A stretch of DNA of 26,750 bases, from the IMG/VR virus record IMGVR_UViG_3300006641_000146, positions 1-26,750 of that record; one strand, written 5' to 3'. Below are positions 4,556 to 24,579 of the stretch, piece by piece. The first letter of the stretch is position 1; the number at the start of each line of letters is the position of its first letter. This DNA is from a virus. Under the pieces are notes generated by a model. The model saw only the letters and a list, made by a program, of their open reading frames with translations, was not told the origin of the DNA and did no database searches. The position numbers and the translations under genes were made by a program.

Positions 4556-4565
4556 GGTGGGTATT

Positions 4566-8713: not shown

Positions 8714-8759
8714 GACAGTACCTCCACGAGGTGATTAGAGTTATAGACTTCTGTGGGTG

Positions 8760-9533: not shown

Positions 9534-9784
9534 ACGTCACCTCCATCGGGCTCAGTAGTGTCGTTGTCTTCGAGGGGGACGGGTGCCACATAAGGGGTGC
9601 CGTCTTGGTTGAAGCGTGGTTCAGGCATGACCCAGTACGGACCCACCTGATAGTCCTGACAAGCCTTATTGGCTGCAGTGGTGGCGTACTCTTGAACGAT
9701 GTCGGTGGGTTGTTTGCCTTCGGTGTAGGCAATAGCGACGATGCCAGGAATCAGCTCGTCGGGGATAGTGATTGTGTAGTCCAT
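9530..9784 (-). CDS. Small fibre-cassette protein
   Basis: An 84-aa acidic protein, MDYTITIPDELIPGIVAIAY, with a helical centre (TDIVQEYATTAANKACQD) and a Pro/Asp-rich C-terminus (VPLEDNDTTEPDGG). It starts 6 bp after the upstream fibre-like gene and its stop overlaps the next start (ATGA). Small proteins with this kind of beta-then-helix N-terminus sit beside tail-fibre genes in cyanophages; a fibre-assembly or chaperone role is possible but not shown by sequence. Confidence 0.65.
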   Translation of the reverse strand: MDYTITIPDELIPGIVAIAYTEGKQPTDIVQEYATTAANKACQDYQVGPYWVMPEPRFNQDGTPYVAPVPLEDNDTTEPDGGDV

Positions 9785-9790
9785 AGTTAG

Positions 9791-10807
9791 TTACCAAGTG
9801 GCGAGGGCAGCACGCTTCCACGTATTTGTGGCCGTGCAAACGTAGATGTAGTCGGCGTCGTAGCGAATATCGCCGGCAGTGCCGGTGGCTGTGGCGTTGG
9901 CTGGGGCGGTGCCTACTGCACGCAGTTGGCCAGAGATTGTGCCGTCTCCCGTGGATCCGTTAGTTACTTTGAGGACACCTGAAGTGGATCTTTCCACTCC
10001 AACATCACTTGCCCCTTGGCCAGCAAATCCAGCTCTAAAGTTAAGAGCGCTACTTGCTAGTTGAAGTTCGCCTGGGCTAAAGAATAGATAAGAGGTTCCG
10101 TTAAGTACAACGCCAAACCGACTAGATGAACCAGTCCCGTATAGAAGCAGGCCATTTGAATCTGTATTGCCAATATCAACATTGGTTTGACTAAAGCTAC
10201 CGCCTGATTTGAGGCGAAGGCGACCTGCAGATGTGATACTGGCTTGACTCGTCCCATTCACCTGCAGATCCAGCAGGTTCCCCGCAAACCCACTCGCTGC
10301 ATTAACACCAAGACCAGTACCACTTGTAGACCACGCAGTGCTGGTGGTTCCAGAGGGTTCAATCAGCAGTTGAGGCTTGGTGGTAGTACCTGTGCCACCA
10401 GTAAACCAAGTGCCAGTGAAGCTAACCGGAGGGGTGCTAGCTGCACCGTTCAAACTCAGTGTGATGTTGCCAGTAGCACCGATGGTTGCAGTGCTCAGAC
10501 CAGCGTATGCACCAGCGTTGTTGTAGATCGGCTGCCCACTAGATCCCGCTACAAGGGCGACGGTGCCCGTTGCATCTGGGAAGCTGATGGTGCGGTTTTG
10601 GGTGGGTGTGACGGTTTGAAGCGTAGTGGTGTAGGTGCCGCCGTCCGACAGGTTCACATCACCCGCCACCGTCATCACTTTGGCGGTCTTGTTCCAGGTC
10701 AGATCGACGTCACCGCCGAACACACCAGCATCATTGAACTGGATCTGGGTATCGCTACCGCCTGGTGTTCCGCCACCAGAACCGCTGCCACCGATAAGCC
10801 GTTTCAT
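9791..10807 (-). CDS. Tail-fibre-like structural protein
   Basis: A 338-aa protein. A flexible Gly/Ser N-terminus (MKRLIGGSGSGGGTPGGSDT) leads into IQFNDAGVFGGDVDLTWNKT. Repetitive beta-rich, T/S/G-rich sequence follows, with segments such as GTVALVAGSSGQPIYNNAGA and SGFAGNLLDLQVNGTSQASI. The end is AGDIRYDADYIYVCTATNTW KRAALATW, a terminal domain common in phage fibre and spike proteins. Trimeric fibre architecture is therefore likely. GGAG precedes ATG 10807. It belongs to the surface-protein cassette lying between TerS and TerL and probably forms an extra fibre besides the gp17-type protein at 24952-26397. Confidence 0.75.
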   Translation of the reverse strand: MKRLIGGSGSGGGTPGGSDTQIQFNDAGVFGGDVDLTWNKTAKVMTVAGDVNLSDGGTYTTTLQTVTPTQNRTISFPDATGTVALVAGSSGQPIYNNAGAYAGLSTATIGATGNITLSLNGAASTPPVSFTGTWFTGGTGTTTKPQLLIEPSGTTSTAWSTSGTGLGVNAASGFAGNLLDLQVNGTSQASITSAGRLRLKSGGSFSQTNVDIGNTDSNGLLLYGTGSSSRFGVVLNGTSYLFFSPGELQLASSALNFRAGFAGQGASDVGVERSTSGVLKVTNGSTGDGTISGQLRAVGTAPANATATGTAGDIRYDADYIYVCTATNTWKRAALATW

Positions 10808-10811
10808 GGAT

Positions 10812-11141
10812 TCACTCCGCAGTAGAAAGGGCCACCTTGAACACGACGGTGGGTGTACCGCCTGAAATGCTTACCAGGCGTCCCCTGACGTAAGGAACCG
10901 GAGCTTGAGCAACGGAATAAGCCGTTGTGCCATTAGCGGTCAACGTGGTATCCAGCTCAACAGGATCCAAGTTGAACCAGTTAGTGGCATCCAAGGAGCC
11001 TTCCAGTCGAATGACGACGTTGGTGCCGATCGACGACACGGTCACTTGAAACACCAAGTTGTCTTGGGTTCCTAGGCCTTGGAAATCAGTAGTCCCTGCT
11101 GATGTCAGGGTGCCCAGCGTTGCAACGACTGGAGAGGACAT
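10812..11141 (-). CDS. Small beta-rich virion protein
   Basis: A 109-aa protein, MSSPVVATLGTLTSAGTTDF, with alternating hydrophobic and T/S residues. It has the central pattern VVIRLEGSLDATNWFNLDPV and a C-terminal end YVRGRLVSISGGTPTVVFKV. Short beta-sandwich proteins with EGSxDGxNW-type motifs are frequent head- or tail-decoration proteins. It lies 4 bp after the fibre-like gene start side and 2 bp from the TerS stop, so it is co-translated with them. The structural role is inferred from composition and neighbours. Confidence 0.65.
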   Translation of the reverse strand: MSSPVVATLGTLTSAGTTDFQGLGTQDNLVFQVTVSSIGTNVVIRLEGSLDATNWFNLDPVELDTTLTANGTTAYSVAQAPVPYVRGRLVSISGGTPTVVFKVALSTAE

Positions 11142-11143
11142 GG

Positions 11144-11389
11144 CTAAGCAACCCTACGGGGTTTCATCTGTACCACCTTATCCAGGTCCGGCAAGGACGA
11201 CACCAGCTCTCCAAAGGGTGTGCCTTCCACTGGTTGAGCACTGATGTTGTTGTCTTTCAAGAACTGCCGAAGAACCGACAACTCAGAACTGGTAATCGAC
11301 CCGTCGTGCAGCTTCTCCTTCAACAAGAGAGCTAGCCCCATATGGAGATCAGCTAGCTGGTCGTTGATGTCGTTCGTCTTCTTGGCCAT
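11144..11389 (-). CDS. Terminase small subunit (T7 gp18-like DNA maturase A)
   Basis: An 81-aa protein (T7 gp18 is 89 aa). The pattern is ADLHMGLALLLKEKLHDGSI, then SSELSVLRQFLKDNNISAQP and TPFGELVSSLP, matching the small-terminase family of T7-like cyanophages (helix, D-G-x-x-x-x-x-E-L, R-Q-F-L-K-D-N, then a short acidic tail). It recognises the phage DNA and brings TerL to the packaging site. ATG 11389 has no clear Shine-Dalgarno site. The 93 bp upstream contain a perfect 8-bp-stem hairpin (11414-11436). Its separation from TerL by five structural genes is unusual. Confidence 0.78.
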   Translation of the reverse strand: MAKKTNDINDQLADLHMGLALLLKEKLHDGSITSSELSVLRQFLKDNNISAQPVEGTPFGELVSSLPDLDKVVQMKPRRVA

Positions 11390-11413
11390 GACGACGTCAG
11401 CAGAAAGGGCTGA

Positions 11414-11436
11414 GAGGGAAGGGCTGGTCTTCCCTC
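11414..11436. other. Perfect 8-bp hairpin upstream of TerS
   Basis: GAGGGAAG and CTTCCCTC form perfect arms around a 7-nt loop. No T-run follows on either strand, so it is not a standard terminator. It lies 25 bp before the TerS start in the leftward leader and could affect mRNA stability or act as a protein-binding site; neither is shown. Confidence 0.5.
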
Positions 11437-11482
11437 CTAGCTAGGCACCCACCACAGGCACCGTCAACACTGTAGGCGGTAG

Positions 11483-11719
11483 TCAACGGCCGCCAGGACG
11501 ACGTCTCGCGTCTTCTGCCCGCCTCTTGGCCAGGTAAGCAGCAAACCCCTGCTCATCCGTCCGCAACCCATCCACAAGGCCGTGCTGCGCCCTCCAAGAC
11601 TTCATCGTCTCCTTGTACGCCCTGCGGTCCTGCCGACTGCCGACCCAGTCCTCGCTGATCACTCGCTGAAGACTGGCCATGTACGTGTTCTGTTGCTGCC
11701 GTTGATAGTCTTGGCTCAT
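11483..11719 (-). CDS. Hypothetical 78-aa protein, first gene of the late module
   Basis: The product starts MSQDYQRQQQNTYMASLQRV and continues with ISEDWVGSRQDRRAYKETMK and a basic C-terminus AYLAKRRAEDARRRPGGR. It is highly charged and probably helical. GGAG lies about 17 nt before ATG 11719. The frame remains open further upstream but only as a shadow of the hairpin region, so this ATG is preferred. I do not recognise the family. Its position, first in the leftward block and just before TerS, might suit a packaging accessory, but this is a guess from location. Confidence 0.6.
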   Translation of the reverse strand: MSQDYQRQQQNTYMASLQRVISEDWVGSRQDRRAYKETMKSWRAQHGLVDGLRTDEQGFAAYLAKRRAEDARRRPGGR

Positions 11720-11790
11720 CGCCTGCTTGCTCCAGGTGGTCGTGGTCGAGGTGCGCCAACACCGTCGACCCCAACAATCTATCCACCCCA

Positions 11791-11815
11791 ACCCCAGCCA
11801 GCACTGGGGTTTTTT
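11791..11815 (+). terminator. Rho-independent terminator, plus strand
   Basis: A 6-7-bp stem (ACCCCAG / CTGGGGT) closes a 6-nt loop and is followed by a run of six T. There is no T-run on the minus side. No plus-strand gene lies upstream within the window, so the transcript it ends is unknown. Confidence 0.75.
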
Positions 11816-11895
11816 CATGCCAACTCCCCTCTTGACACACCCATGTACAGTGGGGGTTAACAATCCCCTTCGGCAAGGGTACATAGTTAATCCAC

Positions 11896-11915
11896 AGGCC
11901 AACGGGCCTTTTTTT
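11896..11915 (+). terminator. Second plus-strand terminator
   Basis: A 5-bp stem AGGCC / GGCCT with an AACG loop runs into seven T. It follows another small hairpin (CCCTT-CGGC-AAGGG, 11866-11879) and lies about 60 bp after a lone TTGACA box (11832-11837). The group looks like the 3' end of a very short RNA, but no convincing -10 box is present. Confidence 0.65.
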
Positions 11916-12120
11916 GTGTCCGTCTCTGTATTGGAAATGGGTCCAGCAACAACGATCCCTCCAATGGTTCCGGGATTGGCCTAACGGCCAATAGCCCTTC
12001 ACTACCTCCTGGTCGCCCCTACAGGGGCTCCCAGACGGCCACACCCCTGCCCCGATGGCCTCACGGCCATCTATACCCCTCAGCCCAACCCCCTCTCAAC
12101 CGGGGGCTCACCAGCGGTTG

Positions 12121-12191
12121 ACCAACTTTTTGCTGGAAAATTCTGAGGGGCACACCCTCGACCAACTTTTTACCGGAAAATTCTGAGGGGC
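12121..12191. repeat. Two 31-bp direct repeats with 40-bp period
   Basis: Copies at 12121-12151 and 12161-12191 differ at only two positions (GCTGG versus ACCGG in the centre). Each has ACCAACTTTTT, then a GG-AAAATTCTGAGGGGC right half, so a T-run and an A-run flank a short centre. The 9-bp spacer with the end of copy 1 forms GAGGG-gcaca-CCCTC. Exact spacing suggests binding sites, promoters or terminal-type short repeats. Confidence 0.85.
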
Positions 12192-12331
12192 TTACGCATA
12201 GTGCGGCAGCCGTCGTCACCCCCCATGGGGGGGCCCTGCGCGGGGTTGATGCGGTGCCCCTGGGGGCCTTGGACAGGCTGGGCCACCCGCTGGACAGCGC
12301 AGACCCCAGTCGTACCAAGGTGTCCTAGGGG

Positions 12332-12364
12332 CCTGCGCACCTGTGTGCATGGCAGGTGCGCAGG
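12332..12364. repeat. Perfect inverted repeat, 12-bp arms
   Basis: Arms CCTGCGCACCTG and CAGGTGCGCAGG are exact reverse complements around a 9-nt loop. No T-tract follows on either strand, so it is not a terminator. It is the longest perfect stem I found in the window and lies in the gene-free region. Confidence 0.85.
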
Positions 12365-12633
12365 GTTGGACAGGGGTCGCCAGGGGTGGGCCCGGAGGGT
12401 GGGGTGCCCTGGTGGGCCTGGTGTGGTGCTGCCTGTTGAAGCGTGCCCGCCCCAGGTCCAACTCGAACCGAGAGGACCGTGGAGGGAACACGGGTCCGCG
12501 GTCGAAACGGTCGCAATCCACCAGTAATGGTGGTAATGTGGAGGAGCAGTGGGCGAAGCCCGCTGCGACCCACCACACGGCAAAGCGGCAGCCCGGAAGG
12601 GCTGGCGGTTTGACCGATACCGCACCTAGACAA

Positions 12634-12786
12634 ATGCAGATCACCGAGCGCGCCTCGAAGGCGGAGATCATCTCCGCTGCCTGCGAGCTGGCGGATAGCC
12701 AGTCTCAGCGGATCGAGGAGCTGCAGCAGCGGCAGATCATCCTCCTAGCCCTCCTGGGCCTGGTGGCTGTACTGGAGCTGCTGTGA
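12634..12786 (+). CDS. Small early membrane protein
   Basis: A 50-aa protein starting MQITERASKAEIISAACELA, with a charged helix (DSQSQRIEELQQRQ) and a C-terminal membrane segment (IILLALLGLVAVLELL). Short proteins with the ERASKAEII-type N-terminus and a terminal hydrophobic helix occur in cyanophages near the early end. ATG 12634 lacks a Shine-Dalgarno site, and an ACCCACCAC motif lies 57 nt upstream. Its stop overlaps the next start (TGATG). As the first rightward gene it probably defines the beginning of the early transcript. Function unknown. Confidence 0.7.
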   Translation: MQITERASKAEIISAACELADSQSQRIEELQQRQIILLALLGLVAVLELL

Positions 12787-13130: not shown

Positions 13131-13168
13131 GGAGGGGCTTCGGCCCTTCCCTGCTGCCCTCACAGCAG
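13131..13168 (+). other. Two tandem RNA hairpins, one with a UUCG tetraloop
   Basis: Hairpin 1 (13131-13150) has an 8-bp stem, with one G-T pair, closing the extra-stable C(UUCG)G loop. Hairpin 2 (13151-13168) pairs CTGCTG with CAGCAG around a 6-nt loop. There is no T-run. They lie between two early genes and probably act in mRNA stability or processing. Confidence 0.65.
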
Positions 13169-13170: not shown

Positions 13171-13179
13171 ACCCACCAC
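13171..13179 (+). promoter_or_regulatory. ACCCACCAC motif before the 161-aa early gene
   Basis: Exact 9-mer, 14 nt before ATG 13194. No Shine-Dalgarno sequence is present between it and the start. See the finding on this motif. Confidence 0.6.
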
Positions 13180-13193
13180 AACGATTTGCACCT

Positions 13194-13679
13194 ATGAAAA
13201 CCGAAGAACAAAAGGAGCAACTGAGCCACGCCGAGCAGAACGCTGAGAGCTGGTCTGACCAGATCACGGCGGCATGGGAGGCCTATGGCTTCTGCTGCGA
13301 GGAGGGAGAGGGCAAGTACCTCTCTCGTGAGGCGAAGCAAGTGCTCAAGGGCCACGGCTACGACGGCACCAATTACAACCACGTTGCGGAAGGAATTGAA
13401 GAAGCCATGCGGGTGACCGCACTGAGCGTCGAAGTGCGCAGCGGCTGGATGGAGCCAGGCGACGGGGACTCAGTGGACCCCGATGAGTTCCGCATCCTGC
13501 TGTCGACCGGAGGGCCTGCCCTTCGGGTGATGGGGGAGCTGGACCGCTGCGAGCCCTCCCGTTGCTGGCTTGAAATCCAGGATTGGGGAACACCTTGGAC
13601 TCGGTACTTCAGCCGCAGTGCTGAGCGGGTAACGGCCCTCCATTGGTTCGCTTCCCTTTTCTATTACGGGGAGGGCTGA
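13194..13679 (+). CDS. Conserved phage hypothetical protein, 161 aa
   Basis: The product starts MKTEEQKEQLSHAEQNAESW. Its C-terminal half has a distinctive conserved pattern: VEVRSGWMEPGDGDSVDPDE, EFRILLSTGGPALRVMGELD and CWLEIQDWGTPWTRYF, ending in FASLFYYGEG. I recall this R-S-G-W ... I-L-L-S-T-G-G-P-A ... D-W-G-T-P-W ... F-Y-x-G-E pattern from many phage and metagenomic hypothetical proteins, without a known role. The start is ATG 13194 preceded by the ACCCACCAC motif. It is the largest of the early genes before RNA polymerase. Confidence 0.72.
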   Translation: MKTEEQKEQLSHAEQNAESWSDQITAAWEAYGFCCEEGEGKYLSREAKQVLKGHGYDGTNYNHVAEGIEEAMRVTALSVEVRSGWMEPGDGDSVDPDEFRILLSTGGPALRVMGELDRCEPSRCWLEIQDWGTPWTRYFSRSAERVTALHWFASLFYYGEG

Positions 13680-13683
13680 ACCA

Positions 13684-13821
13684 ATGCTGAGCCGCCTGCC
13701 TGTTGCTCTATTCACGGTGGCGGCCAGCTCCCTTTTGTGGCTTATGGCCCTGGAGGAGCTGGCCCGTCAGCCGGTGACCAACACCGGCACCCAACCCACT
13801 ACCCACCACGTCGACCGATGA
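13684..13821 (+). CDS. Tiny early membrane protein
   Basis: A 45-aa product, MLSRLPVALFTVAASSLLWL, in which residues 5-22 form a single membrane helix or signal-anchor, followed by a polar tail (ARQPVTNTGTQPTTHHVDR). The stop overlaps the next start (ATGA), and the start is 4 bp after the previous stop. The C-terminal TTHH codons coincide with the ACCCACCAC motif that serves the next gene. An inner-membrane early protein is likely; function unknown. Confidence 0.55.
   Translation: MLSRLPVALFTVAASSLLWLMALEELARQPVTNTGTQPTTHHVDR
13801..13809 (+). promoter_or_regulatory. ACCCACCAC motif before the 71-aa early gene
   Basis: Exact 9-mer, 8 nt before ATG 13818. It extends to ACCCACCACGTCG, shared with the copy at 14343. 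Confidence 0.6.
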
Positions 13822-14033
13822 ACCAGTTCTTTCTGACCCAAGCCGACTACGAAAGCCGCTGGAATGGCTGGGCCTCTGCCGCCTCTGAGTACTGCCAACG
13901 GGGCTACCCCGTGCATTACGAGGGGGTCGACTGGCAGCAGGCCTGCCGCGATAACGGCTTCTATGGCGCCATCGAAAAGGTGAAGGCCTCCTATCGGATC
14001 CGCCAGCACCGCCGCCGTATGGCCGCCAACTAA
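13818..14033 (+). CDS. Early hypothetical protein, 71 aa
   Basis: The product is MNQFFLTQADYESRWNGWAS followed by EYCQRGYPVHYEGVDWQQAC and a basic end YRIRQHRRRMAAN. It is small, aromatic-rich and basic at the C-terminus, which would suit a nucleic-acid or host-protein binder. ATG 13818 is chosen over the in-frame upstream alternative because it gives an ATGA overlap and sits 8 nt after the motif. A rho-independent terminator follows 9 bp after the stop. Family not recognised. Confidence 0.65.
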   Translation: MNQFFLTQADYESRWNGWASAASEYCQRGYPVHYEGVDWQQACRDNGFYGAIEKVKASYRIRQHRRRMAAN

Positions 14034-14042
14034 ACCACCACG

Positions 14043-14069
14043 GGCCCCAGTAATGGGGCCTTTCCTTTT
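14043..14069 (+). terminator. Rho-independent terminator in the early block
   Basis: A perfect 7-bp stem GGCCCCA / TGGGGCC with a GTAA loop is followed by TTTCCTTTT. It lies between the 71-aa and 63-aa early genes and would end or attenuate transcription by host RNA polymerase. Confidence 0.85.
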
Positions 14070-14078
14070 ACCCACCAC
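14070..14078 (+). promoter_or_regulatory. ACCCACCAC motif before the 63-aa early gene
   Basis: Exact 9-mer directly after the terminator T-tract and 5 nt before ATG 14084. Confidence 0.6.
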
Positions 14079-14083
14079 AAACC

Positions 14084-14275
14084 ATGGCAACCAAACACCA
14101 GCTGGAGCAGCAGATCTACCGCTGCGAAGACGAGATCCTGGAGGCCTGCCGCTCCAACTGCTACGCCCACCTGAAGATGGACAGCGACGCCATCAAACGC
14201 AGCAACGCCAGGCTCTACGCCTTGCGGGTGCTGGAGTCGCAGCTGCATGCAGCGTGGCGTCGCACTCCCGTGTGA
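14084..14275 (+). CDS. Early helical hypothetical protein, 63 aa
   Basis: The product starts MATKHQLEQQIYRCEDEILE and continues SNCYAHLKMDSDAIKRSNAR with a basic end HAAWRRTPV. It appears to be two long charged helices, probably a helical hairpin or coiled coil. The start follows a terminator and an ACCCACCAC motif without a Shine-Dalgarno site, so it may need its own promoter or readthrough. No family recognised. Confidence 0.65.
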   Translation: MATKHQLEQQIYRCEDEILEACRSNCYAHLKMDSDAIKRSNARLYALRVLESQLHAAWRRTPV

Positions 14276-14342
14276 CGGATCGCTACAGCGCCCCTGCCAC
14301 TGCCGGTGGGGGCGCCATGCTGGCGGCGCCGGCAGGACCGGC

Positions 14343-14351
14343 ACCCACCAC
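14343..14351 (+). promoter_or_regulatory. ACCCACCAC motif before a 21-codon frame
   Basis: Exact 9-mer, 6 nt before ATG 14358, again extended to ACCCACCACGTCG. Confidence 0.55.
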
Positions 14352-14357
14352 GTCGCT

Positions 14358-14423
14358 ATGCACCACAGCAATGCGTTGGCTGCAGACCTTGCGTTGGCTG
14401 CAGTATTCACCTGTCCCTATTGA
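14358..14423 (+). CDS. Possible 21-aa leader peptide
   Basis: The frame encodes MHHSNALAADLALAAVFTCP plus Y and ends with TGA overlapping the next ATG (TGATG). The only support is the ACCCACCAC motif 6 nt upstream and the coupling to the next gene. The sequence contains a small internal duplication (GCGTTGGCTGCAG twice). It may be a leader that couples translation to the 64-aa gene, or not a gene at all. Confidence 0.35.
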   Translation: MHHSNALAADLALAAVFTCPY

Positions 14424-14617
14424 TGAAACAACCCCACCTTCTTCTGGTTGAGGCATCAGTCCGTCTCTTTGCTGAAGGTCACGCCGAACTGGCGTATGAC
14501 CTGAGGCAACTGGCCCTTAAGTGGACGCCAGAAAGCGAGAAGCGGCTGATCCATGGGCCGGAACCAACCGATGAAGACAGCGACTTCGACTACCTCTCAC
14601 CCATCCACGACCTATGA
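14423..14617 (+). CDS. Early hypothetical protein, 64 aa
   Basis: The product starts MKQPHLLLVEASVRLFAEGH, followed by a helical segment and an acidic C-terminus (EPTDEDSDFDYLSPIHDL). Small, acidic early proteins often bind host enzymes, but nothing here identifies a target. ATG 14423 overlaps the stop of the tiny upstream frame, and its own stop overlaps the next ATG (ATGA). Family not recognised. Confidence 0.6.
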   Translation: MKQPHLLLVEASVRLFAEGHAELAYDLRQLALKWTPESEKRLIHGPEPTDEDSDFDYLSPIHDL

Positions 14618-14778
14618 CCTCACAACCATCGGATTCAGAACTGCACGAGCTGTATCGCAGCTGGTGGCAGGACTCCTACGGAGCTGTGCCAAACGCGCAA
14701 GCAACAAGCATCGCCGCGGCCTTCGCCCGCCATGTGTTGACTACGTATAAGGAGGGGGCTGATGGCACAGCTACCTGA
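14614..14778 (+). CDS. Early hypothetical protein, 54 aa
   Basis: The product is MTSQPSDSELHELYRSWWQD, then YGAVPNAQATSIAAAFARHV, ending TTYKEGADGTAT. It is helical, with a short aromatic N-terminal segment. The start overlaps the preceding stop (ATGA), and the last 17 bp overlap the next gene, whose Shine-Dalgarno site AAGGAGG lies within this gene. Family not recognised. Confidence 0.55.
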   Translation: MTSQPSDSELHELYRSWWQDSYGAVPNAQATSIAAAFARHVLTTYKEGADGTAT

Positions 14779-15070
14779 ATCGCAGGTGATGGCACGCCTC
14801 AGACATGAGGTGTTGACCGTGCTGTACCAGCAGTTCCCGAAGACACTGACCCACCCTCAGTTGGTGGAGGCAGTGAGCCAGCCATTCCTCACTCGTGACA
14901 AGCAGTGGCTACAGGACGCAGTGAAGGAGCAGACGCAGGTGCTGCACCACGCCAACCTGATACGACCAGCCTCTGGTGGTTACACCTTGACGGAACGTGG
15001 TCGAAGGGATCGGCAACAGGCAGCACGGTTCCTGACCAAGAAGATCAACCCACCACAAGACGCAGCATGA
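14762..15070 (+). CDS. Early protein with winged-helix-like C-terminal half
   Basis: A 102-aa protein, MAQLPESQVMARLRHEVLTV. A helical region is followed by LTHPQLVEAVSQPF, then ANLIRPASGGYTLTERGRRD, which resembles the recognition helix plus beta-wing of winged-helix DNA-binding proteins. ATG 14762 has a strong Shine-Dalgarno site (AAGGAGG), an exception among the early genes. A transcriptional regulator or host-polymerase modulator would fit its place upstream of the phage RNA polymerase, but this is an inference from a short pattern. Confidence 0.6.
   Translation: MAQLPESQVMARLRHEVLTVLYQQFPKTLTHPQLVEAVSQPFLTRDKQWLQDAVKEQTQVLHHANLIRPASGGYTLTERGRRDRQQAARFLTKKINPPQDAA
15048..15056 (+). promoter_or_regulatory. 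ACCCACCAC motif before the 69-aa early gene
   Basis: Exact 9-mer within the end of the upstream gene, 10 nt before ATG 15067. Confidence 0.5.
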
Positions 15071-15276
15071 CCGACCGACAAATCATCGAGCTTTGGGATG
15101 AAGTGCAAGTGCAGTTTTCGTCGATTGATTATTGCAAGCGAGAGCTTGAAGTACTCCCTAAAGGGACTCCCATGATGCCTGATCAGTACAATGCTCTTGT
15201 CAGGGCAGACAGGCGCCGAGAGTGCGACGCCATTGTGGCTTTTGCTCAGCGCCTACTTGCAAAGGACGCAGCATGA
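15067..15276 (+). CDS. Early hypothetical protein, 69 aa
   Basis: The product begins MTDRQIIELWDEVQVQFSSI and contains DYCKRELEVLPKGTPMMPDQ and RADRRRECDAIVAFAQRLLA. It is a small helical protein. The N-terminal MTDRQIIELW resembles the start of the unrelated 51-aa gene at 19857 (MTDQQIIQAA), which may point to a shared small domain. Start and stop both overlap neighbours (ATGA). Family not recognised. Confidence 0.65.
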   Translation: MTDRQIIELWDEVQVQFSSIDYCKRELEVLPKGTPMMPDQYNALVRADRRRECDAIVAFAQRLLAKDAA

Positions 15277-15569
15277 GCAGGATTCAAGAGTTCGACCGAC
15301 GGGCTGAGTCGGTCACCCACGACAGAGCAGCTGACTACGGGGATCCCAACGTCAGCTTCGACCGCATTGCGTTGATGTGGTCGGCCATCACAGGGGCAGA
15401 CATCACTGCCCAACAGGTGGCGCACATGATGATCTGCCTCAAGCTGAGCCGGTTACAAACCAGTCCCAATCACCTGGATTCCTATGTCGACATCGTCGGC
15501 TACGCAAGATGCGGCGTCCTCTGTGGACCCCGTGAAGCCAACACCACTGGAGATCAAGTTTGGGAATGA
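15273..15569 (+). CDS. DUF6378-like early protein
   Basis: A 98-aa protein with RAADYGDPNVSFDRIALMWS, then AQQVAHMMICLKLSRLQTSP and HLDSYVDIVGYARCG. This ordered pattern (D-Y-G-D-P ... F-x-R-I-A-x-x-W ... V-A-x-M-M-I-x-L-K-x-S-R ... D-S-x-x-D-x-x-G-Y) matches the phage family I know as DUF6378. Its acidic and Lys/His residues on helices suggest an all-alpha nucleotide-related fold, but no activity is established. ATG 15273 gives the usual ATGA overlap. Confidence 0.75.
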   Translation: MSRIQEFDRRAESVTHDRAADYGDPNVSFDRIALMWSAITGADITAQQVAHMMICLKLSRLQTSPNHLDSYVDIVGYARCGVLCGPREANTTGDQVWE

Positions 15570-15573
15570 CCTG

Positions 15574-15768
15574 ATGGGTCGTTGCCTTGCTGCCTACTGG
15601 ACTGACCGCCAGGCCCTCATCGACGCACGCAGTCGCATGCGTGCAGTGGTTGAGGTCATCGCCGATGAGGTGCGTCGGTGGGCACCGGACAAAGGCCAAG
15701 CCAAGATCTGCCACTTGGCTATCAATGAAGTTGCTGACCGCCTACTGCGAGACACTAATGACCTATGA
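15574..15768 (+). CDS. Early hypothetical helical protein, 64 aa
   Basis: The product from ATG 15574 is MGRCLAAYWTDRQALIDARS, then RAVVEVIADEVRRWAPDKGQ and AINEVADRLLRDTNDL. It is all-helical. An upstream in-frame ATG at 15484 would give 94 aa but an 86-bp overlap with the DUF6378-like gene; the shorter start leaves a 4-bp gap and fits the packing of this block better. No Shine-Dalgarno site decides between them. Family not recognised. Confidence 0.6.
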   Translation: MGRCLAAYWTDRQALIDARSRMRAVVEVIADEVRRWAPDKGQAKICHLAINEVADRLLRDTNDL

Positions 15769-15919
15769 CCCGAAGTGGCGCATCGAAGACGAGCGCCGAG
15801 TTGAATGGCTGGAGCGTTGCTACCAGCAAGATGGACGACGTGACCCCAAGCATTCCAAGCACGGCACATACACCGGGCTGGTTGATAAGTGGGGCCACCT
15901 GCCCTGGAAGGTGCAATGA
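15758..15919 (+). CDS. Early hypothetical protein, 53 aa
   Basis: The product is MTYDPKWRIEDERRVEWLER, then CYQQDGRRDPKHSKHGTYTG, ending DKWGHLPWKVQ. It is strongly charged, with several Trp residues, and may be a small nucleic-acid or protein binder. The first 11 bp overlap the previous gene and the stop overlaps the next ATG. Family not recognised. Confidence 0.6.
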   Translation: MTYDPKWRIEDERRVEWLERCYQQDGRRDPKHSKHGTYTGLVDKWGHLPWKVQ

Positions 15920-16164
15920 CCAAGCCGAGAGGCAAGGACTGCGCCTTTGTCTTGACCTGGTCGGATGATGAGCAGCCCAACCTGGGTGATGGTGTCAGCC
16001 GCACGTCGGATCCACGGTCTTCCTTGTGGGAAGTGCATGTGTGGTTTGGTGCGGCACGACCCATGAAGGAATCCATCCGGGCAATTAACAACAAGCAAGC
16101 CCTCAAGTTTGCAAAGAACCGCTACCCAACAGCCACTGAAATCAAACTCATCGGAAAGAAATGA
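15916..16164 (+). CDS. Early hypothetical protein, 82 aa
   Basis: The product begins MTKPRGKDCAFVLTWSDDEQ, followed by a beta-rich centre (LWEVHVWFGAARPMKES) and a helix ending FAKNRYPTATEIKLIGKK. This looks like a small alpha/beta fold. ATGA overlaps occur at both ends. I do not recognise the family. Confidence 0.65.
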   Translation: MTKPRGKDCAFVLTWSDDEQPNLGDGVSRTSDPRSSLWEVHVWFGAARPMKESIRAINNKQALKFAKNRYPTATEIKLIGKK

Positions 16165-16493
16165 CCTCAAGACCTGACGCGCTTGGCGAGAACATCTACG
16201 TCTACGCCAAGGACAAGCCAACCAAAGATGACGCCGACCAGAACGGCTATGTGTTGTACTTCTGCCCTGAGTACGGCTGGTACTCCGGCATGTTTACGAA
16301 GGCGCACATGCCGAACACTACGCACTGGACCTACCTGCCACTTCGCCCGCCAGCACTGCCTGATCCCACCGTTGCCCGTGACAGGGAGTTCAACGACTGG
16401 CTAAAGACATTCCCCACCAAGTTTGAGGACAGTGTTATTGCATTGTTCCGTCTTGGTTGGAACGCAGGCTGGGCTCGTGCATCAAGCCGCTGA
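16161..16493 (+). CDS. Early hypothetical protein upstream of RNA polymerase, 110 aa
   Basis: The product begins MTSRPDALGENIYVYAKDKP and has aromatic beta-like segments (GYVLYFCPEYGWYSGMFTKA, HWTYLPLRPPALPDP) followed by a helical tail with DSVIALFRLGWNAGWARASS. It is the last gene of the small early block. ATG 16161 overlaps the previous stop, and the 3' end overlaps the RNA polymerase gene by 17 bp if that gene starts at GTG 16477. Family not recognised. Confidence 0.65.
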   Translation: MTSRPDALGENIYVYAKDKPTKDDADQNGYVLYFCPEYGWYSGMFTKAHMPNTTHWTYLPLRPPALPDPTVARDREFNDWLKTFPTKFEDSVIALFRLGWNAGWARASSR

Positions 16494-18873
16494 TCCACTG
16501 ATTGATAAACAGCTGGATCTTGAGCGGGAGATGTACCTGTTGGGTGCCGACCGTCGTGAGCTGCTGCGCAACCGGCGGATCGTCACCCGGATGGAGTCCC
16601 TTTCGGACTACGGCAATGCCTTGGTCACGCTTGGCATTGACCAGGTCATCAAGGAGATACGCATCCATCGCAAGCGGCTGAAGGATGGTAAGGCAGGGCC
16701 TGGCTACAAGTACCTGGGCCCACTGCTATGCCTTGCCCCGCACCGCATTGCTGCTTGTGCATTGCGTGCCGTCGTCGATCAGATCAGCAGCCCCGTCAAC
16801 CTCGCTGCCCTAGCGCACCACGTTGGGGAGATGGTCTGGATTGAAACCATGCTGGCCCGTGCCAGTAGGTGGGAGATGCAGAACCACAAGCGGGTGCGTG
16901 GTCGCTTCCAGCAGAAGGTGCAGGACATCCATCGGATGAAGAACACCGAGACCTGGTCGCCTCAGGAACGGGCTGCAACAGGTGCATTCCTGGTGATGGC
17001 TATCGCCAGCAAGACCGGACTGATCAAGGTCGACAGGGCCCAGCGCGGGCCACGTCTGATCACTCAGGTGCGGGCCACTGATGACTGCATGGCCTTCATC
17101 GGCAAGGTCAACGACACAGGCATGGCCTTGTGTCCGTTCTCCCTGCCGATGGTGGCTAAGCCCAGGCCATGGACCACGGTCCTGGACGGCGGCTACTTCA
17201 CCGACATCCCCAACAACACCCTGCTCAAGGACGGCGCCGACTTCGTTGCTCAGCACACCACTGGCACGGAGCCCTTCATCCAGGCCGCCAACCACCAGCA
17301 AGGTGTGGCATGGCAGGTCAACCGCTGGATCCTTGAACAGCTGGAGCACGCCTGGGAGAAGAGCATCTCCGTCGGGAAGCTGATGCCAAGGGAAGGGTGG
17401 GCTGTGCCTCCCTACCCAAAGCACCTGCCTGATGACCACCCGGACATCACGCAGTGGAAGTTCAATGCCAGGCAGATCCACGAACGCAACGACAAGACCA
17501 AGAACCAGCGCATTGGTACGGCCAAGCAGCTGTGGCTGGCGCGTCGTTTCGTGGATGAGCAGCGGCTGCACTACCCAATGCAGCTGGACTTCAGGGGTAG
17601 GTATTACTACCGGCCTCCGTTCCTCAACCCCCAGGCCAACGACATTGGCCGTGCCCTGCTGCAGTTCGCTGATGGCAAGCCCATCACGGATGCCAGCCAA
17701 GCCGAATGGCTATGGGTGCATGGTGCCAACCTCTATGGCCACTCCAAGCTGAACTGGAAAGCACGCCTTGACTGGGCACACCAGCACAAGGAAGCCATCT
17801 GCCGGGCCGGCATGGACCCATGGCAGACGACACAGTTCTGGACTGAGGCCGACGACCCCTGGCAGTTCCTTGCCTTCTGTCGTGCTGCCTATCAGTACGT
17901 CGAACAGCGACAGCATTTCATCTGCCAGCTGCCCGTCGTCCTGGACTGCACATGCTCTGGCATCCAGCACTACTCAGCCCTGCTCCGCAATGAGCAGATG
18001 GCTGAGCTGGTGAACCTGATGCCGAGCGACAAGCCGCAAGACATCTACGCCCATGTCCTGCGTGCAGTGCTCCACCAGCTGCGCAACGACGCAGACAATC
18101 CACATGCCCGGGCGTGGCTGGAACTACAGCCCGACCGGTCGTTGGCCAAGCCCGTCGTGATGACGCTGCCCTACTCAGCGACCAGGCAGGCGGTGTTCAA
18201 GCACTGCCAGGTCTGGGCATTTGAAAGAACCCTTGAGCTGTACGGCACGGAGGGGTGGTGCTTCAAGCGTGGCGCTATTGCTGCCATGCACTACATGACC
18301 ACCATCCTGGTGCGTGAAACCAGCAAGATCATCGGCCCTGCCAAGCACGCCATGTCGTGGTTCAAGCAGGTCGGCAAGCTCGCTGGCACTCATGACATTC
18401 CCCTCCAATGGCGCTCACCGTCGGGTCTGCTGGTGCGACAGCAGTACTTCGACTACCGGGGTGTTCGCATCCCGCTGCTCTACCTATCGCCGGTGATCAA
18501 GACCTTTGATTCCAACCACCTGACGAATGGGTTGAATCCAAAGCGGATGGGCAATGGGCTTAGCCCCAACGTCATCCACTCCCTGGATTCCAGTCACATG
18601 GCCTTCGCAACTGTTGATGCGTTTGCCAATGGCGTCACCAACCTGGGCGGTATCCATGACTGCTTCGCTACGACGCCAGCTGAAATGAGCCAAGTGCGCA
18701 ACTCAGTGCGCAACAGCTTTGCTGCGATGTACTTAGAGGATTGGTTCCACACCATCACCACTGAACTGCTGGCCCAACTGCCGGCAGAACTGCACGACAA
18801 GCTGCCAGTCATCCCGCCTGTCGGGGGGCTGGACCTCAACACCGTTCGCAACGCCACTTACTTCATCACCTGA
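16477..18873 (+). CDS. T7-like single-subunit RNA polymerase
   Basis: A DNA-directed RNA polymerase that transcribes phage middle and late genes from phage promoters. All catalytic motifs are present: motif A DCTCSGIQHYSA (D490), motif B KPVVMTLPYS (K558, Y566), and motif C IHDCFATTP (H727, D728), equivalent to T7 D537, K631, Y639 and D812. Length is 798 aa against 883 in T7, with a shorter N-terminal domain, as in cyanophages. GTG 16477 is preferred: it keeps the N-terminal helix LIDKQLDLEREMYLLGADRR and overlaps the upstream gene by only 17 bp; the first ATG (16531) would cut into this helix. It leads the DNA-metabolism block. Confidence 0.95.
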   Translation: MHQAADPLIDKQLDLEREMYLLGADRRELLRNRRIVTRMESLSDYGNALVTLGIDQVIKEIRIHRKRLKDGKAGPGYKYLGPLLCLAPHRIAACALRAVVDQISSPVNLAALAHHVGEMVWIETMLARASRWEMQNHKRVRGRFQQKVQDIHRMKNTETWSPQERAATGAFLVMAIASKTGLIKVDRAQRGPRLITQVRATDDCMAFIGKVNDTGMALCPFSLPMVAKPRPWTTVLDGGYFTDIPNNTLLKDGADFVAQHTTGTEPFIQAANHQQGVAWQVNRWILEQLEHAWEKSISVGKLMPREGWAVPPYPKHLPDDHPDITQWKFNARQIHERNDKTKNQRIGTAKQLWLARRFVDEQRLHYPMQLDFRGRYYYRPPFLNPQANDIGRALLQFADGKPITDASQAEWLWVHGANLYGHSKLNWKARLDWAHQHKEAICRAGMDPWQTTQFWTEADDPWQFLAFCRAAYQYVEQRQHFICQLPVVLDCTCSGIQHYSALLRNEQMAELVNLMPSDKPQDIYAHVLRAVLHQLRNDADNPHARAWLELQPDRSLAKPVVMTLPYSATRQAVFKHCQVWAFERTLELYGTEGWCFKRGAIAAMHYMTTILVRETSKIIGPAKHAMSWFKQVGKLAGTHDIPLQWRSPSGLLVRQQYFDYRGVRIPLLYLSPVIKTFDSNHLTNGLNPKRMGNGLSPNVIHSLDSSHMAFATVDAFANGVTNLGGIHDCFATTPAEMSQVRNSVRNSFAAMYLEDWFHTITTELLAQLPAELHDKLPVIPPVGGLDLNTVRNATYFIT

Positions 18874-18875
18874 CC

Positions 18876-19508
18876 ATGAACTACAACCTCATCTCCGGCA
18901 TCCGTCTCACCACACCTGTCGCCAAGTTCCAGTACCCGAAGCTGGTTGAACCTGAAACCAAGTTCAACCCTGAGGGTGTCTACAAACTGACGGCAGTGCT
19001 TGGTGCAGCCGAGGCCACCGAGATCAGCGAGGCTCTCGACACCCTGCTGAATAGCCACAAGGCCTCCCTGAAGCAGCAGGATCCAGGCAAGAAGGACTGG
19101 AAGCTGGCCGATCTGCCCTACTCCTTCGAGGACTACGACGGCAAGCCATCCTTCATCGTCAAGGTGAAGATGAAAGCCAAAGGCATGGGTCGTGACGGCA
19201 AGCCCTGGACTGCAGCGCCTGCCATCTTCGATGCCAAGGGTCAGCCCGTTCGTGACCGTGAGTCCCTCAAGGGCATGTGGTCTGGCACCACCGGCCGCGT
19301 GTCGTTTGAAGCGCAGCCGTTCTTCCAAGCAGCCATTGGCGCTGGCATTACCCTGCGCCTAAAGGCGGTGCAGATCATCGACCTTGTTGAAGGAGGCGGC
19401 AGTGCCGAGAGCTACGGCTTCGGAGAAGAAGACGGCTGGTCTGGTTCCTCGGAGGCGACGCCGTTCGATAGCTCAACGGCCATCCCCCTCGACGAGTCGG
19501 ACTTCTGA
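18876..19508 (+). CDS. Single-stranded DNA-binding protein (T7 gp2.5-like)
   Basis: A 210-aa protein (T7 gp2.5 is 232) that coats single-stranded DNA and contacts the replisome through its acidic tail. The OB-fold region shows AKFQYPKLVEPETKFNPEGV, YKLTAVLGAA, PSFIVKVKMKAKGM and AAIGAGITLRLKAVQIIDLV. The C-terminus is acidic and ends in LDESDF with a terminal Phe, as required in T7 gp2.5 for polymerase and helicase interaction. It starts 2 bp after the RNA polymerase stop. The coding sequence of the acidic tail overlaps the presumed start region of the endonuclease in the +1 frame. Confidence 0.92.
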   Translation: MNYNLISGIRLTTPVAKFQYPKLVEPETKFNPEGVYKLTAVLGAAEATEISEALDTLLNSHKASLKQQDPGKKDWKLADLPYSFEDYDGKPSFIVKVKMKAKGMGRDGKPWTAAPAIFDAKGQPVRDRESLKGMWSGTTGRVSFEAQPFFQAAIGAGITLRLKAVQIIDLVEGGGSAESYGFGEEDGWSGSSEATPFDSSTAIPLDESDF

Positions 19509-19860
19509 GTACCGCTCCAAGTTTGAGCAGCAGGTCGCTGGCTCACTAAACAAACGGGGCCTGGCCTTTGACTACGAAAGCCAGGCCCTTACCTACACCA
19601 TCACCGCCAGCTACACGCCGGACTTCATCCTGCCCAATGGCGTGATGGTTGAGACCAAAGGCCTGTTCACACCAGAGGATCGCCGCAAGATGCTGGCCGT
19701 CAAGGCGCAGCACCCTGACAAGGACATCCGCTTGTGCTTCATGCGGGCAGATACCAAACTCTCCCGCCGACCTGGCGCCCTGTCGTACTGGCAGTGGGCC
19801 GAGAGGCACGGCTTCATCTGGTGCGAGAAGCAGATACCCACCACATGGTTTAAGCAATGA
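19402..19860 (+). CDS. Endonuclease I (T7 gp3-like Holliday-junction resolvase)
   Basis: A structure-specific nuclease that resolves branched DNA and helps degrade host DNA. The core matches T7 gp3: YRSKFEQQVAGSLNKRGL (Glu equivalent to E20), TPDFILPNGVMVETKG (D, E and K equivalent to D55, E65 and K67), then DIRLCFMRADTKLSRRPGAL and IPTTWFKQ. The basic C-terminal extension of T7 gp3 is missing. The start is uncertain: between the SSB stop and the conserved N-terminus there is no ATG, GTG or TTG. The nearest in-frame candidates are GTG 19402 (used here, 152 aa, 107-bp overlap with SSB) and TTG 19384/19387. A +1 frameshift from SSB, or a non-standard start, is possible. Confidence 0.9.
   Translation: MPRATASEKKTAGLVPRRRRRSIAQRPSPSTSRTSEYRSKFEQQVAGSLNKRGLAFDYESQALTYTITASYTPDFILPNGVMVETKGLFTPEDRRKMLAVKAQHPDKDIRLCFMRADTKLSRRPGALSYWQWAERHGFIWCEKQIPTTWFKQ
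19836..19844 (+). promoter_or_regulatory. ACCCACCAC motif before the 51-aa gene
   Basis: Exact 9-mer inside the endonuclease coding end (codons for I-P-T-T), 12 nt before ATG 19857. The coding constraint weakens this copy. Confidence 0.4.
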
Positions 19861-20012
19861 CTGATCAACAGATCATCCAGGCCGCCACCGACGCCGGCCT
19901 TTGTTTTCCTGAGTGCTGGGCCTTAGACCTCGCACAGCAGGATTGGGACGAACAGGAGCGGAATCAAATGGCCAAGCTGCGTCGCTTCGCTGAATTGATC
20001 CAAGCCCTGTAG
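19857..20012 (+). CDS. Small hypothetical protein between endonuclease and primase
   Basis: A 51-aa helical protein, MTDQQIIQAATDAGLCFPEC, then WALDLAQQDWDEQERNQMAK and a C-terminal helix RRFAELIQAL. ATG 19857 overlaps the endonuclease TGA, and the stop lies 14 bp before the primase/helicase. Small proteins with this kind of N-terminus (a helix followed by an acidic amphipathic helix and L-R-R-F-A) are common in cyanophage replication regions; function unknown. Confidence 0.65.
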   Translation: MTDQQIIQAATDAGLCFPECWALDLAQQDWDEQERNQMAKLRRFAELIQAL

Positions 20013-20026
20013 TCCGATCAACTGCC

Positions 20027-21637
20027 ATGCCATCCAAGTTCCTGCGGCATGAGCCTTGCCCGCAGTGCAACAGCAAGAACAACCTGGCCCGTTACGACGA
20101 CGGTCACGCCACTTGCTTTGGCTGCGGCTACCAAGACCAACCGCCCAAGGGTGAAGCCCTTAAACCCATTGCGCCTATGGCACCACCTGTCACACCACTG
20201 CTGGACTTCATCGACATCAAGGCGCTGGAGAAGCGAGGCATCGACCTCGATACCTGCAAGCTGTACGGCTACGGCTATTCCGTACACAACAACGCCAAGG
20301 TTCAGGTCGCCACTTACCGGGACCAACACGGCAAGGAGGTAGCGCAGCACATCCGTGATGCCGGCAAGCGGTTCCGCTGGTTAGGTGACACGTCCAACAT
20401 GCAGCTGTGGGGGCAACACCTCTGGCGGCAAGGGATCGGTGGCAGTGGTGGGGCCTTTGTCGTCGTCACCGAGGGCGAGATCGACGCCATGTCGGTCAGC
20501 CAGGTGCAAGGCAACCGCTACCCAGTGGTGTCCCTACCCAATGGTGCGCAGTCGGCCAAGAAATACTTGGCCGCCAATGCCGTATGGCTCAGCCAGTTCA
20601 GCCGGATCGTGCTCTGCTTCGACTCCGATGAACCTGGTGAGAAGGCAGCACAAGAAGCGTTGACCGTCCTGCCCCTGGGCAAGGTGGCCATCTGCCGGCT
20701 GCCCCGCAAGGACGCCAACGAAATGCTCAAGGCAGGGGAGGGCGACCTGCTGCGTGACCTGCTATGGAAGGCCACACCATCCCGCCCGGACGGCATCGTC
20801 AATGCCTCCGAGCTATGGGATGAACTGATCAAGCCATCGGCTGCATCGGTCTGCGAATACCCCTGGCCGCAGCTGAACCACATGACCCGTGGCTTCCGCA
20901 AAGGCGAGATGACCACCATCTGCGCAGGCAGTGGTGTGGGGAAGTCGTCCGTCTGCCGAGAGGTGGCCCATCACTTCCTGCGCCAAGGGCTACGCGTTGG
21001 CTACATCGCCTTGGAGGAATCCACCAAGCGCACCATGCAGGGCATCGTCGGCATCGAGCTGAACAAGCCCATCCACCTGGACCCTGCACTGGCCACAGAA
21101 GAGGAGCTGCGCGAGGGCTTCGACCGTGTGTTCGGCACTGGTCGCTGCTTCCTGTACGACCACTTCGGATCCATGGATCCCGAGCATCTGATCAACAAGA
21201 TCAGATACCTGGCTGACGGGGAAGGCGCTGACGTCGTCATCCTTGACCACCTCACCATCGTGATCAGTGGCCTCGCTGACCTCGATGAACGACGGGCCAT
21301 TGACGTCACCTGCACCAAGCTCCGTCAGGTCGTAGAGCAGACAGGCATCGGCCTGATCCTGGTCTCTCATCTCAAGCGGCCAGAAGGCCGCGGCCATGAG
21401 GAAGGGGCACAGACCTCCCTCTCTCAGCTTCGCGGCAGCCACGCCATAGCCCAGCTCAGTGACCTTTGCATCGGGGCAGAGCGGAACCAGCAGGGCGACG
21501 TCGCTGAACGCAATGAGCTACAGCTGCGTGTCTTGAAGAACCGCTTCTCCGGGCAGACGGGACCCTGCGACAAGCTGCTCTACGACCAGGACACAGGTCG
21601 ACTGGTCATCCCCATGTCCCATTACTTCGGCACCTAA
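20027..21637 (+). CDS. Primase/helicase (T7 gp4-like)
   Basis: A bifunctional replisome protein of 536 aa (T7 gp4 is 566). It lays RNA primers and unwinds the fork as a hexamer. The N-terminal zinc-binding domain has C11-x2-C14 and C30-x2-C33. The TOPRIM catalytic residues are TEGEIDAMS (E149, E151) and FDSDEPG (D199, D201). The helicase domain has Walker A GSGVGKSS (301-308), the Walker B-like DVVILDHLTIV, and the segment SHLKRPEGRGHEEGAQTSLS followed by LRGSHAIAQLSD. The ATG at 20027 lacks a Shine-Dalgarno site. In T7-like cyanophages a DNA polymerase gene normally follows; here a zinc ribbon and ThyX do. Confidence 0.95.
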   Translation: MPSKFLRHEPCPQCNSKNNLARYDDGHATCFGCGYQDQPPKGEALKPIAPMAPPVTPLLDFIDIKALEKRGIDLDTCKLYGYGYSVHNNAKVQVATYRDQHGKEVAQHIRDAGKRFRWLGDTSNMQLWGQHLWRQGIGGSGGAFVVVTEGEIDAMSVSQVQGNRYPVVSLPNGAQSAKKYLAANAVWLSQFSRIVLCFDSDEPGEKAAQEALTVLPLGKVAICRLPRKDANEMLKAGEGDLLRDLLWKATPSRPDGIVNASELWDELIKPSAASVCEYPWPQLNHMTRGFRKGEMTTICAGSGVGKSSVCREVAHHFLRQGLRVGYIALEESTKRTMQGIVGIELNKPIHLDPALATEEELREGFDRVFGTGRCFLYDHFGSMDPEHLINKIRYLADGEGADVVILDHLTIVISGLADLDERRAIDVTCTKLRQVVEQTGIGLILVSHLKRPEGRGHEEGAQTSLSQLRGSHAIAQLSDLCIGAERNQQGDVAERNELQLRVLKNRFSGQTGPCDKLLYDQDTGRLVIPMSHYFGT

Positions 21638-21645
21638 CCCACCAC
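21637..21645 (+). promoter_or_regulatory. ACCCACCAC motif before the zinc-ribbon gene
   Basis: Exact 9-mer that starts in the primase/helicase stop codon and ends 1 nt before ATG 21647. The 9-bp gap between the genes is almost only this motif. Confidence 0.55.
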
Positions 21646-21646: not shown

Positions 21647-21871
21647 ATGAACTGCCCTGAGTGCAACTGCGACGTCCTTCGCACCACGATGACCCGGCAC
21701 TACCGCAAGCACGCCGTCATTCGCAGGAAGAAATGCACGTCCTGCAACCACGCCTGGTACACGATGGAAACCCAGATCCCAAAGGATGCCGTCGTCCATA
21801 ACCGCACCCACGAAGGCATGTCCACCTTTGGCCTGACCAAAGAATTCCAAGGCCTGACCTACCGCCAATGA
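21647..21871 (+). CDS. Small zinc-ribbon protein, NrdR-like N-terminal domain
   Basis: A 74-aa protein with two Cys pairs (MNCPECNCDV, C3-x2-C6, and KKCTSCNHAWYTME, C30-x2-C33) separated by a basic stretch (RHYRKHAVIRRKK). The order C-P-x-C ... R-R-K-x-C-x-x-C-x-x-x-W-x-T-x-E is that of the zinc ribbon of the NrdR repressor, but the ATP-cone domain is absent, so it cannot be a complete NrdR. DNA or RNA binding is likely; a role in nucleotide or middle-gene control beside ThyX is speculation. Its stop overlaps the ThyX start (ATGA). Confidence 0.72.
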   Translation: MNCPECNCDVLRTTMTRHYRKHAVIRRKKCTSCNHAWYTMETQIPKDAVVHNRTHEGMSTFGLTKEFQGLTYRQ

Positions 21872-24281: not shown

Positions 24282-24341
24282 CAATTACTCAGCCTTTCGA
24301 CCAATTACTCAGCCTTTCGACCAATTACTCAGCCTTTCGAC
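24282..24341. repeat. Three exact 20-bp tandem repeats
   Basis: The unit on the minus strand is GTCGAAAGGCTGAGTAATTG, present three times head to tail. The unit contains the last codons and the TAA stop of the upstream 84-aa gene, so two further copies of this tail follow as non-coding sequence. The start-side unit also forms an AGCCTT / AAGGCT hairpin. Confidence 0.95.
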
Positions 24342-24579
24342 TAAGGCTGATCAAAGTGGTCAATACGCCCATCATCACCGTGATCGCACGGGCATCAGCG
24401 TCGCTGCATCCCATCGGGGCAGGGTCGATGGCCTTGCCCTGTGGCGTACCAACCCACTTGGCATACCAGGGCCACACCGTCGGCAAGACATAGAACCGAC
24501 AGCTGGCCCATTGCAAAGTCGCAACAACAACGATGGCCATGGAAACCGCAACGATGGATTTCCATAGCCACCTAGGCAT
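24325..24579 (-). CDS. Two-helix membrane protein, holin candidate
   Basis: An 84-aa protein, MPRWLWKSIVAVSMAIVVVA. It has a first membrane helix at about 7-24, then a loop with FYVLPTVWPWYAKWVGTPQG and DPAPMGCSDADARAITVMMG, then a second helix TVMMGVLTTLISLSRKAE. I recall the same loop and second-helix pattern in Synechococcus podovirus proteins. Two membrane helices, small size and closeness to the tail-fibre gene suit a holin, but other membrane roles are possible. The last codons lie in the triplicate 20-bp repeat. Start overlaps the previous stop by one base (TAATG). Confidence 0.65.
   Translation of the reverse strand: MPRWLWKSIVAVSMAIVVVATLQWASCRFYVLPTVWPWYAKWVGTPQGKAIDPAPMGCSDADARAITVMMGVLTTLISLSRKAE

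Follow-up and report, generated by a model that had tools for sequence, protein, structure and literature searches.

A nine-base box before early genes of a T7-like phage and its probable antisense RNA partner

Gene content of the window and occurrence of the box

The window analyzed here is the complete IMG/VR record IMGVR_UViG_3300006641_000146, a phage fragment of 26,750 bp. The subject is a nine-base sequence, ACCCACCAC (the box), that stands before many of its early genes, together with a hairpin upstream of the terminase small-subunit gene (terS) that contains the complement of the box. The plus strand encodes a T7-like RNA polymerase, a gp2.5-like single-strand binding protein, a primase-helicase, ThyX and an exonuclease, and the minus strand encodes portal, scaffold, terminase, endolysin and tail genes. 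The closest named phages are those of the Prochlorococcus P-SCSP1 group, with 47% identity in the RNA polymerase and 59% in the primase, and because of this relationship the host is probably a picocyanobacterium. Phages of the P-SCSP1 group lack a DNA polymerase (PMC9860041).

The box occurs in nine exact copies on the plus strand and in none on the minus strand, all at the positions listed in an earlier reading of the same letters (the original prediction). The chance expectation is 0.33 copies (mean, both strands together), with a maximum of 3 in 100 shuffles; one-mismatch variants do have matches on the minus strand. The distances to ATG codons had also been given correctly. The copies at 13171-13179, 13801-13809 and 14070-14078 lie 14, 8 and 5 nucleotides (nt) upstream of the ATGs at 13194, 13818 and 14084. 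The first is directly preceded by two plus-strand hairpins (13131-13168), a UUCG hairpin at 13131-13150 and CTGCTG-CCCTCA-CAGCAG at 13151-13168, and the third follows a hairpin at 14042-14061. The copy at 14343-14351 does precede a start by 6 nt, the start being ATG 14358 of a 21-codon open reading frame (ORF) that is coupled to, and overlaps, the next gene (ATG 14423). This ORF (MHHSNALAADLALAAVFTCPY, 14358-14423) meets that gene at TGATG, and a small ORF occupies the equivalent place in the relatives L004, L006, L007, L056 and L196.

Two further copies lie within coding sequence. One (15048-15056) is in the end of gene 14762-15070, 10 nt upstream of ATG 15067, and the other (19836-19844) is in the end of an endonuclease gene, 12 nt upstream of ATG 19857. 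Conservation of the latter is owed in part to the encoded peptide, IPTTW. However, the reading frame of the box at the end of gene 14762 differs between the window and the relative G010, and the relative G022, which lacks the system, encodes IPTTW by other codons; for these reasons the boxes within coding sequence look as if they were selected as nucleotides. The last copy (21637-21645) is 1 nt upstream of ATG 21647 and is retained in the AT-rich relatives L068-L071 and L078. The gene that it precedes (21647-21871) encodes a stand-alone NrdR-like zinc ribbon (PF22811), which adjoins ThyX here and in other genomes.

The remaining two copies had been assigned to gene-free DNA, a description that needs correcting in both cases. 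That at 12568-12576 belongs to the first early gene (ATG 12634), in whose leader it comes after a -10-like sequence and a hairpin at 12548-12566; in most relatives, gcacctagacaaATG comes next after this copy. That at 11447 is flanked by two minus-strand reading frames, ORF 11483-11720 and terS (11144-11389); it is antisense to the terS leader, and its position is conserved in relatives. The terS assignment rests on PF11123 (E 5e-14, over the cut-off) and phrog_891.

The starts that follow the box lack Shine-Dalgarno (SD) sequences, as originally proposed: an SD is present at 0 of 7 in the window and at 6 of 72 non-redundant sites in relatives, and SD sequences are weaker at early than at late starts (p = 0.027). 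The box itself is not an SD variant. It was also right that it does not pair with 16S rRNA, in that two Synechococcus 16S regions contain no complement of 7 bases or more, the longest contiguous pairing being 6 bases with wobble allowed. The near-matches reported beside late starts are present (1955 and 4554), each as a single case.

Conservation and linkage to early genes

Among 17 related genomes or large contigs, there are 86 copies of the box on the early strand, of which 58 are start-linked, that is, 0-20 nt before an ATG opening a frame of at least 40 codons. The 83 other permutations of its letters average 9.3 early-strand and 3.3 start-linked copies, and the best of these are shifted overlaps of the motif. 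Across a set of 80 contigs that encode a related primase the box recurs, with hardly any copies off the early strand, and it recurs as well in contigs retrieved with an early protein. In unbiased counts of 8-mers before starts, the motif ranks first or close to first in most of the genomes carrying it; in genomes without it, a search for a different seed and box pair found no other start-linked 8-mer that stands out.

Several relatives carry their portal and scaffold genes on the early strand, and there the copies remain largely confined to the block from terS to the primase region. The box therefore marks a temporal class and not a strand, and the proposal that it marks early genes is borne out for the early and replication class. 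Stray copies outside this block are single ones, in G010 and G019. The structural genes themselves form a large inversion between relatives: the minus strand carries the portal, scaffold and tail-fibre genes in the window (1-11389), G009, G020 and G024, and the plus strand carries them in G010, G014, G015, G018 and G021.

The leaders containing the box have a recurring layout, in which a UNCG-loop hairpin and a second hairpin with the loop NYTCA are followed by the box; hairpin pairs like that at 13131-13168 are seen in many relatives. Of 72 non-redundant start-linked copies, 52 follow a fold of -12 kcal/mol or lower ending within 12 nt, compared with a mean of 37 and a maximum of 44 in shuffled controls, and the real folds have a mean z of -1.9. 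The box is predicted to be unpaired with a mean probability of 0.80, and the spacers between it and the ATG are A/C-rich. A second conserved stretch, gcacctagaca, occurs between the box and the ATG of different early genes in L056, L063, L193, L195 and L197.

A complementary hairpin upstream of terS

The copy at 11447 is part of a different kind of element. Read on the minus strand, positions 11462-11444 form a hairpin, GGUGCCU-GUGGU-GGGUGCC, and GUGGUGGGU (11455-11447), which comprises its loop and 3' arm, is the complement of ACCCACCAC. All clade relatives examined, including AT-rich ones, have GTGGTGGGT on the coding strand 61-100 nt upstream of terS, and P-SCSP1a and P-SCSP1n have it near the same gene, as the sole exact copy in the genome. 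The top of the hairpin is either CCU-GUGGU-GGG or CC-GUGGUG-GG, and the outer stem pairs co-vary. Across 14 lineages whose loop has five bases, 85.7% of the pair cells are standard on the terS strand; the covariation score is 0.433, compared with a maximum of 0.152 when the stem is slid, and none of 500 shuffles was as good. On the opposite strand, 55.4% of cells pair, fewer because the terS-strand form relies on G-U pairs. Since the stem pairs and covaries far better on the terS strand, the structured RNA is, by this comparison, the one read towards terS.

A putative -10 element, TACAGT, lies at 11469-11474 (minus), and TAnnnT hexamers (TACAGT, TACACT, TAGGAT or TATGGT, and TAGTGT in an AT-rich pair) precede the seed by 18-20 nt in 14 of 20 lineages. 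From the position of the hexamer, the first base of the RNA would be the foot of the hairpin, near 11462. The predicted 50-nt RNA (minus, 11462-11413) folds into two hairpins with a computed energy of -23.1 kcal/mol. The second of these (11436-11413) is terminator-like, and its region has a mean z of -1.6 in 20 lineages; in the relative G015, a T run follows the seed hairpin itself. Rfam gives no match at gathering score in the window, and none at E up to 1 within 11300-12700.

Complementarity where the letters have changed

Some relatives have altered boxes. In the AT-rich L269-L271, early starts carry CCACCACCAC(AGG) in place of ACCCACCAC, and CCACCACAGG is the complement of CCUGUGGUGG in the hairpin of these genomes. 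The early starts of L270 and L271 have CCACCACCACAGG, complementary to the CCUGUGGUGG of their own hairpin; in L271, the hairpin reads AUCUGUGGUGG, and CCACCACAGAU is found upstream of one early gene. P-SCSP1a and P-SCSP1n have no exact early copy of ACCCACCAC. When the P-SCSP1a hairpin was scanned against both strands of its whole genome, the second-best non-self match was the initiation region of the first early gene (TCAATCCACCAGGAG), at -24.1 compared with a mean of -9.9 and a standard deviation of 2.9. In P-SCSP1n, the next match is the initiation region of another early gene.

More generally, the mean pairing energy of early initiation regions with their own hairpin is better than with shuffled hairpins (p < 0.05) in 10 of 13 genomes, and the flanks of the targets fit the hairpin of their own genome better than those of others (permutation p = 0.004 left, 0.035 right), although the statistics of these flank and duplex-energy tests and of the other pairing comparisons ignore phylogeny. 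Complementarity is conserved despite changed letters, as it would be in a trans-acting antisense RNA. The two elements also disappear together: both are missing from the clade of G011, G012, G022 and G023, which is nested among carriers in a tree of RNA polymerase, primase and terminase, and from G017. P-SCSP1a, likewise nested among carriers, has kept the hairpin.

Proposed function and alternatives

These comparisons make it likely that ACCCACCAC serves as the target box of an antisense RNA of the phage, which would pair around the translation starts of most early cistrons and probably repress them. The original prediction offered two readings of the motif, and that of a regulator-binding element is the better half; the regulator, however, is probably the phage's own antisense hairpin RNA, encoded at the supposedly gene-free copy at 11447, rather than a protein. 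This RNA would be encoded on the minus strand, immediately before terS, and would start with the hairpin, with the loop GUGGU and a 3' arm beginning GGGU; it is probably made as a separate small RNA and probably acts in trans. The box, mostly unpaired and a few nt before early start codons, often after one or two stable hairpins, would make first contact through its ACCAC with the GUGGU loop. Opening of the stem would then give a nine-base-pair, G+C-rich duplex, for which -16.1 kcal/mol is computed. Such a duplex would fall within the ribosome footprint and block initiation on early mRNAs that have no SD, and it may also expose them to RNase III. Such pairing could serve to shut off early genes, to control dosage or to exclude related phages.

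Several observations weigh against this interpretation. The fragments that carry the altered boxes, L269-L271, are short, and the best non-self match of the P-SCSP1a hairpin is at 3608, within the gene after the RNA polymerase gene. G018, G021 and L269 are among the genomes in which the shuffled-hairpin energy test is weak, and the disregard of phylogeny applies to all of the pairing statistics. In G016, of the AT-rich clade, the hairpin (GUGGUGGGG) is degraded, with z about 0, but one exact box is retained. The spacing from box to ATG is broad (0-18 nt), and the boxes at 12568, 14343 and 19836 are partly paired in the fold prediction. In the folded hairpin, only 5 of the 9 seed bases are in the loop. 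Both the promoter and the 3' end of the small RNA are predictions, the T-run being weak in the window, and the hairpin RNA may instead belong to the leader of the terS mRNA.

The box may instead be where an RNA-binding protein, of phage or host, recognizes early mRNAs in the manner of T4 RegA, with the hairpin beside terS coincidental or a second site. The short and exact box, the wide spacing and the hairpins before many copies would suit such a protein, as would the NrdR-like zinc ribbon gene directly after one conserved box. However, the RNA on the terS side contains the complement of the box and not the box, the covarying stem is on the terS strand, and complementarity is kept in P-SCSP1 and L270/L271 even though the letters change. 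The only phage protein family that tracks the boxes is that of gene 14423-14617 (64 amino acids, no known family). It is present in 10 of 11 box-carrying genomes and absent from five box-free genomes covering the region, and its sole occurrence among genomes scored as box-free is in G024, whose contig lacks the region from terS to this gene. A search by presence and absence for a protein acting in trans gave this gene as the best correlate, and it was rejected as a candidate, having no known domain and being missing from P-SCSP1. We consider the protein explanation unlikely. A DNA operator or roadblock, repressor-bound at the early genes and upstream of terS in the manner of cluster A stoperators, is less likely again. 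A short asymmetric site in a single orientation at both divergent units is consistent with it, but a double-stranded site needs neither a one-strand hairpin with G-U pairs nor proximity to a start codon within coding sequence (15048), nor complementarity that is kept when letters change.

The other half of the original prediction, an alternative ribosome-loading element, is not supported. Here the box would be an unstructured leader of A and C only for cyanobacterial ribosomes, in keeping with the lack of SD sequences at these starts, the mean unpaired probability and the A/C-rich spacers. The host genomes, however, do not use the box: in eight picocyanobacterial genomes ACCCACCAC is not commoner than the reversed word and mostly rarer, in nine host stretches no such word occurs upstream of starts, and a complement in 16S is lacking. 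Nor would an unstructured leader need an exact 9-mer, and the structural genes of the same phages have no box. As the sole explanation it is about as improbable as the operator, if not slightly more so, but an open, SD-free leader suits antisense control, so it may be true in addition to the antisense reading. Least probable by some way is a promoter or a pause or termination signal of the phage polymerase. A T7-like RNA polymerase is encoded, and the universal copy sits between the packaging genes and the early block, but early copies share the 9-mer alone, with no wider consensus around them, whereas a T7-like promoter would be conserved over about 20 bp and recur at several transcription units; where structural genes share the early strand, their units have no copies either. 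Sites for T7 primase (ACCC/ACCA primers) were considered separately and dropped because the base preceding the box is not fixed.

Comparison with known phage systems

The closest analogue of the proposed RNA is C4 of P1 and P7, a phage-encoded structured RNA in which loop stretches pair around a ribosome binding site and block translation (PMC12197685). In the present case too, a loop is complementary to its target at the ribosome binding site, with GUGGU(GGGU) facing ACCCACCAC 1-14 nt before the ATG. Unlike C4, which has one target (ant) in a temperate phage, one loop here faces 5-8 early cistrons in a T7-like phage, and the RNA would be transcribed from the opposite strand and has no match among known Rfam covariance models. 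No antirepressor was found among the scanned window proteins, although most early proteins have no family. The P4 CI immunity RNA is another small phage antisense RNA that controls phage genes, with one or two targets, a role in lysogeny or immunity, and no target box common to many cistrons. P22 sar RNA and lambda OOP RNA resemble the proposed RNA in the same general respect (PMC12197685), but each has one or two targets in lysogeny or immunity control, and no shared box before many cistrons. The CfrI antisense RNA of cyanophage S-PM2 is different again, being a cis-antisense RNA of about 225 nt linked to psbA with no shared target box (PMC12197685).

The box itself most resembles the SAS/ESAS repeats of cluster K mycobacteriophages, for which a role in translation is suspected. 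Both are short asymmetric repeats just before non-structural starts in one orientation, and the mycobacteriophage repeats likewise have one odd copy away from starts, inverted repeats upstream of about half of the copies, and no presence in the host genome (PMC3203893). However, SAS is a 13-bp sequence, GGGATAGGAGCCC, that includes an SD core, and its inverted repeats do not support RNA pairing (PMC3203893). In the present phages the box is ACCCACCAC, an SD is lacking, and what the odd copy encodes is a covarying hairpin that is complementary to the boxes. The present case suggests that a complementary hairpin be considered as a reading of start-associated repeats in other phages, for example the odd copies of cluster K SAS. 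Among the matches listed in a literature search for the 9-mer string, none concerned phage leaders.

Known phage antisense RNAs mostly have a single target and serve lysogeny. A conserved small RNA directed at a whole set of early genes in the lytic T7-like cyanophages would add a further level of control to a model class of phages, one not seen there before, and would give a reason why these early genes have no SD sequences. A broader and distinctly tentative proposal, which we hold to be possible though rather doubtful, is that this virulent T7-like lineage has an RNA regulon, in which one small RNA shuts off most early cistrons through a shared non-SD box and can likewise silence the early genes of related phages that superinfect, which would amount to immunity by RNA in a lytic phage. 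The hairpin is carried by cultured relatives (P-SCSP1 on Prochlorococcus MED4).

Other repeats in the window

Two other sets of repeats are present. Between minus-strand genes, 24282-24344 comprises three tandem copies of a 20-bp unit (CAATTACTCAGCCTTTCGAC) that is absent in 16 relatives. Non-coding DNA upstream of the early genes contains two near-identical 32-bp direct repeats (GACCAACTTTTTGCTGGAAAATTCTGAGGGGC) at 12120-12151 and 12160-12191. Their core is absent in the 16 relatives searched, and they are possibly promoters of the phage polymerase.

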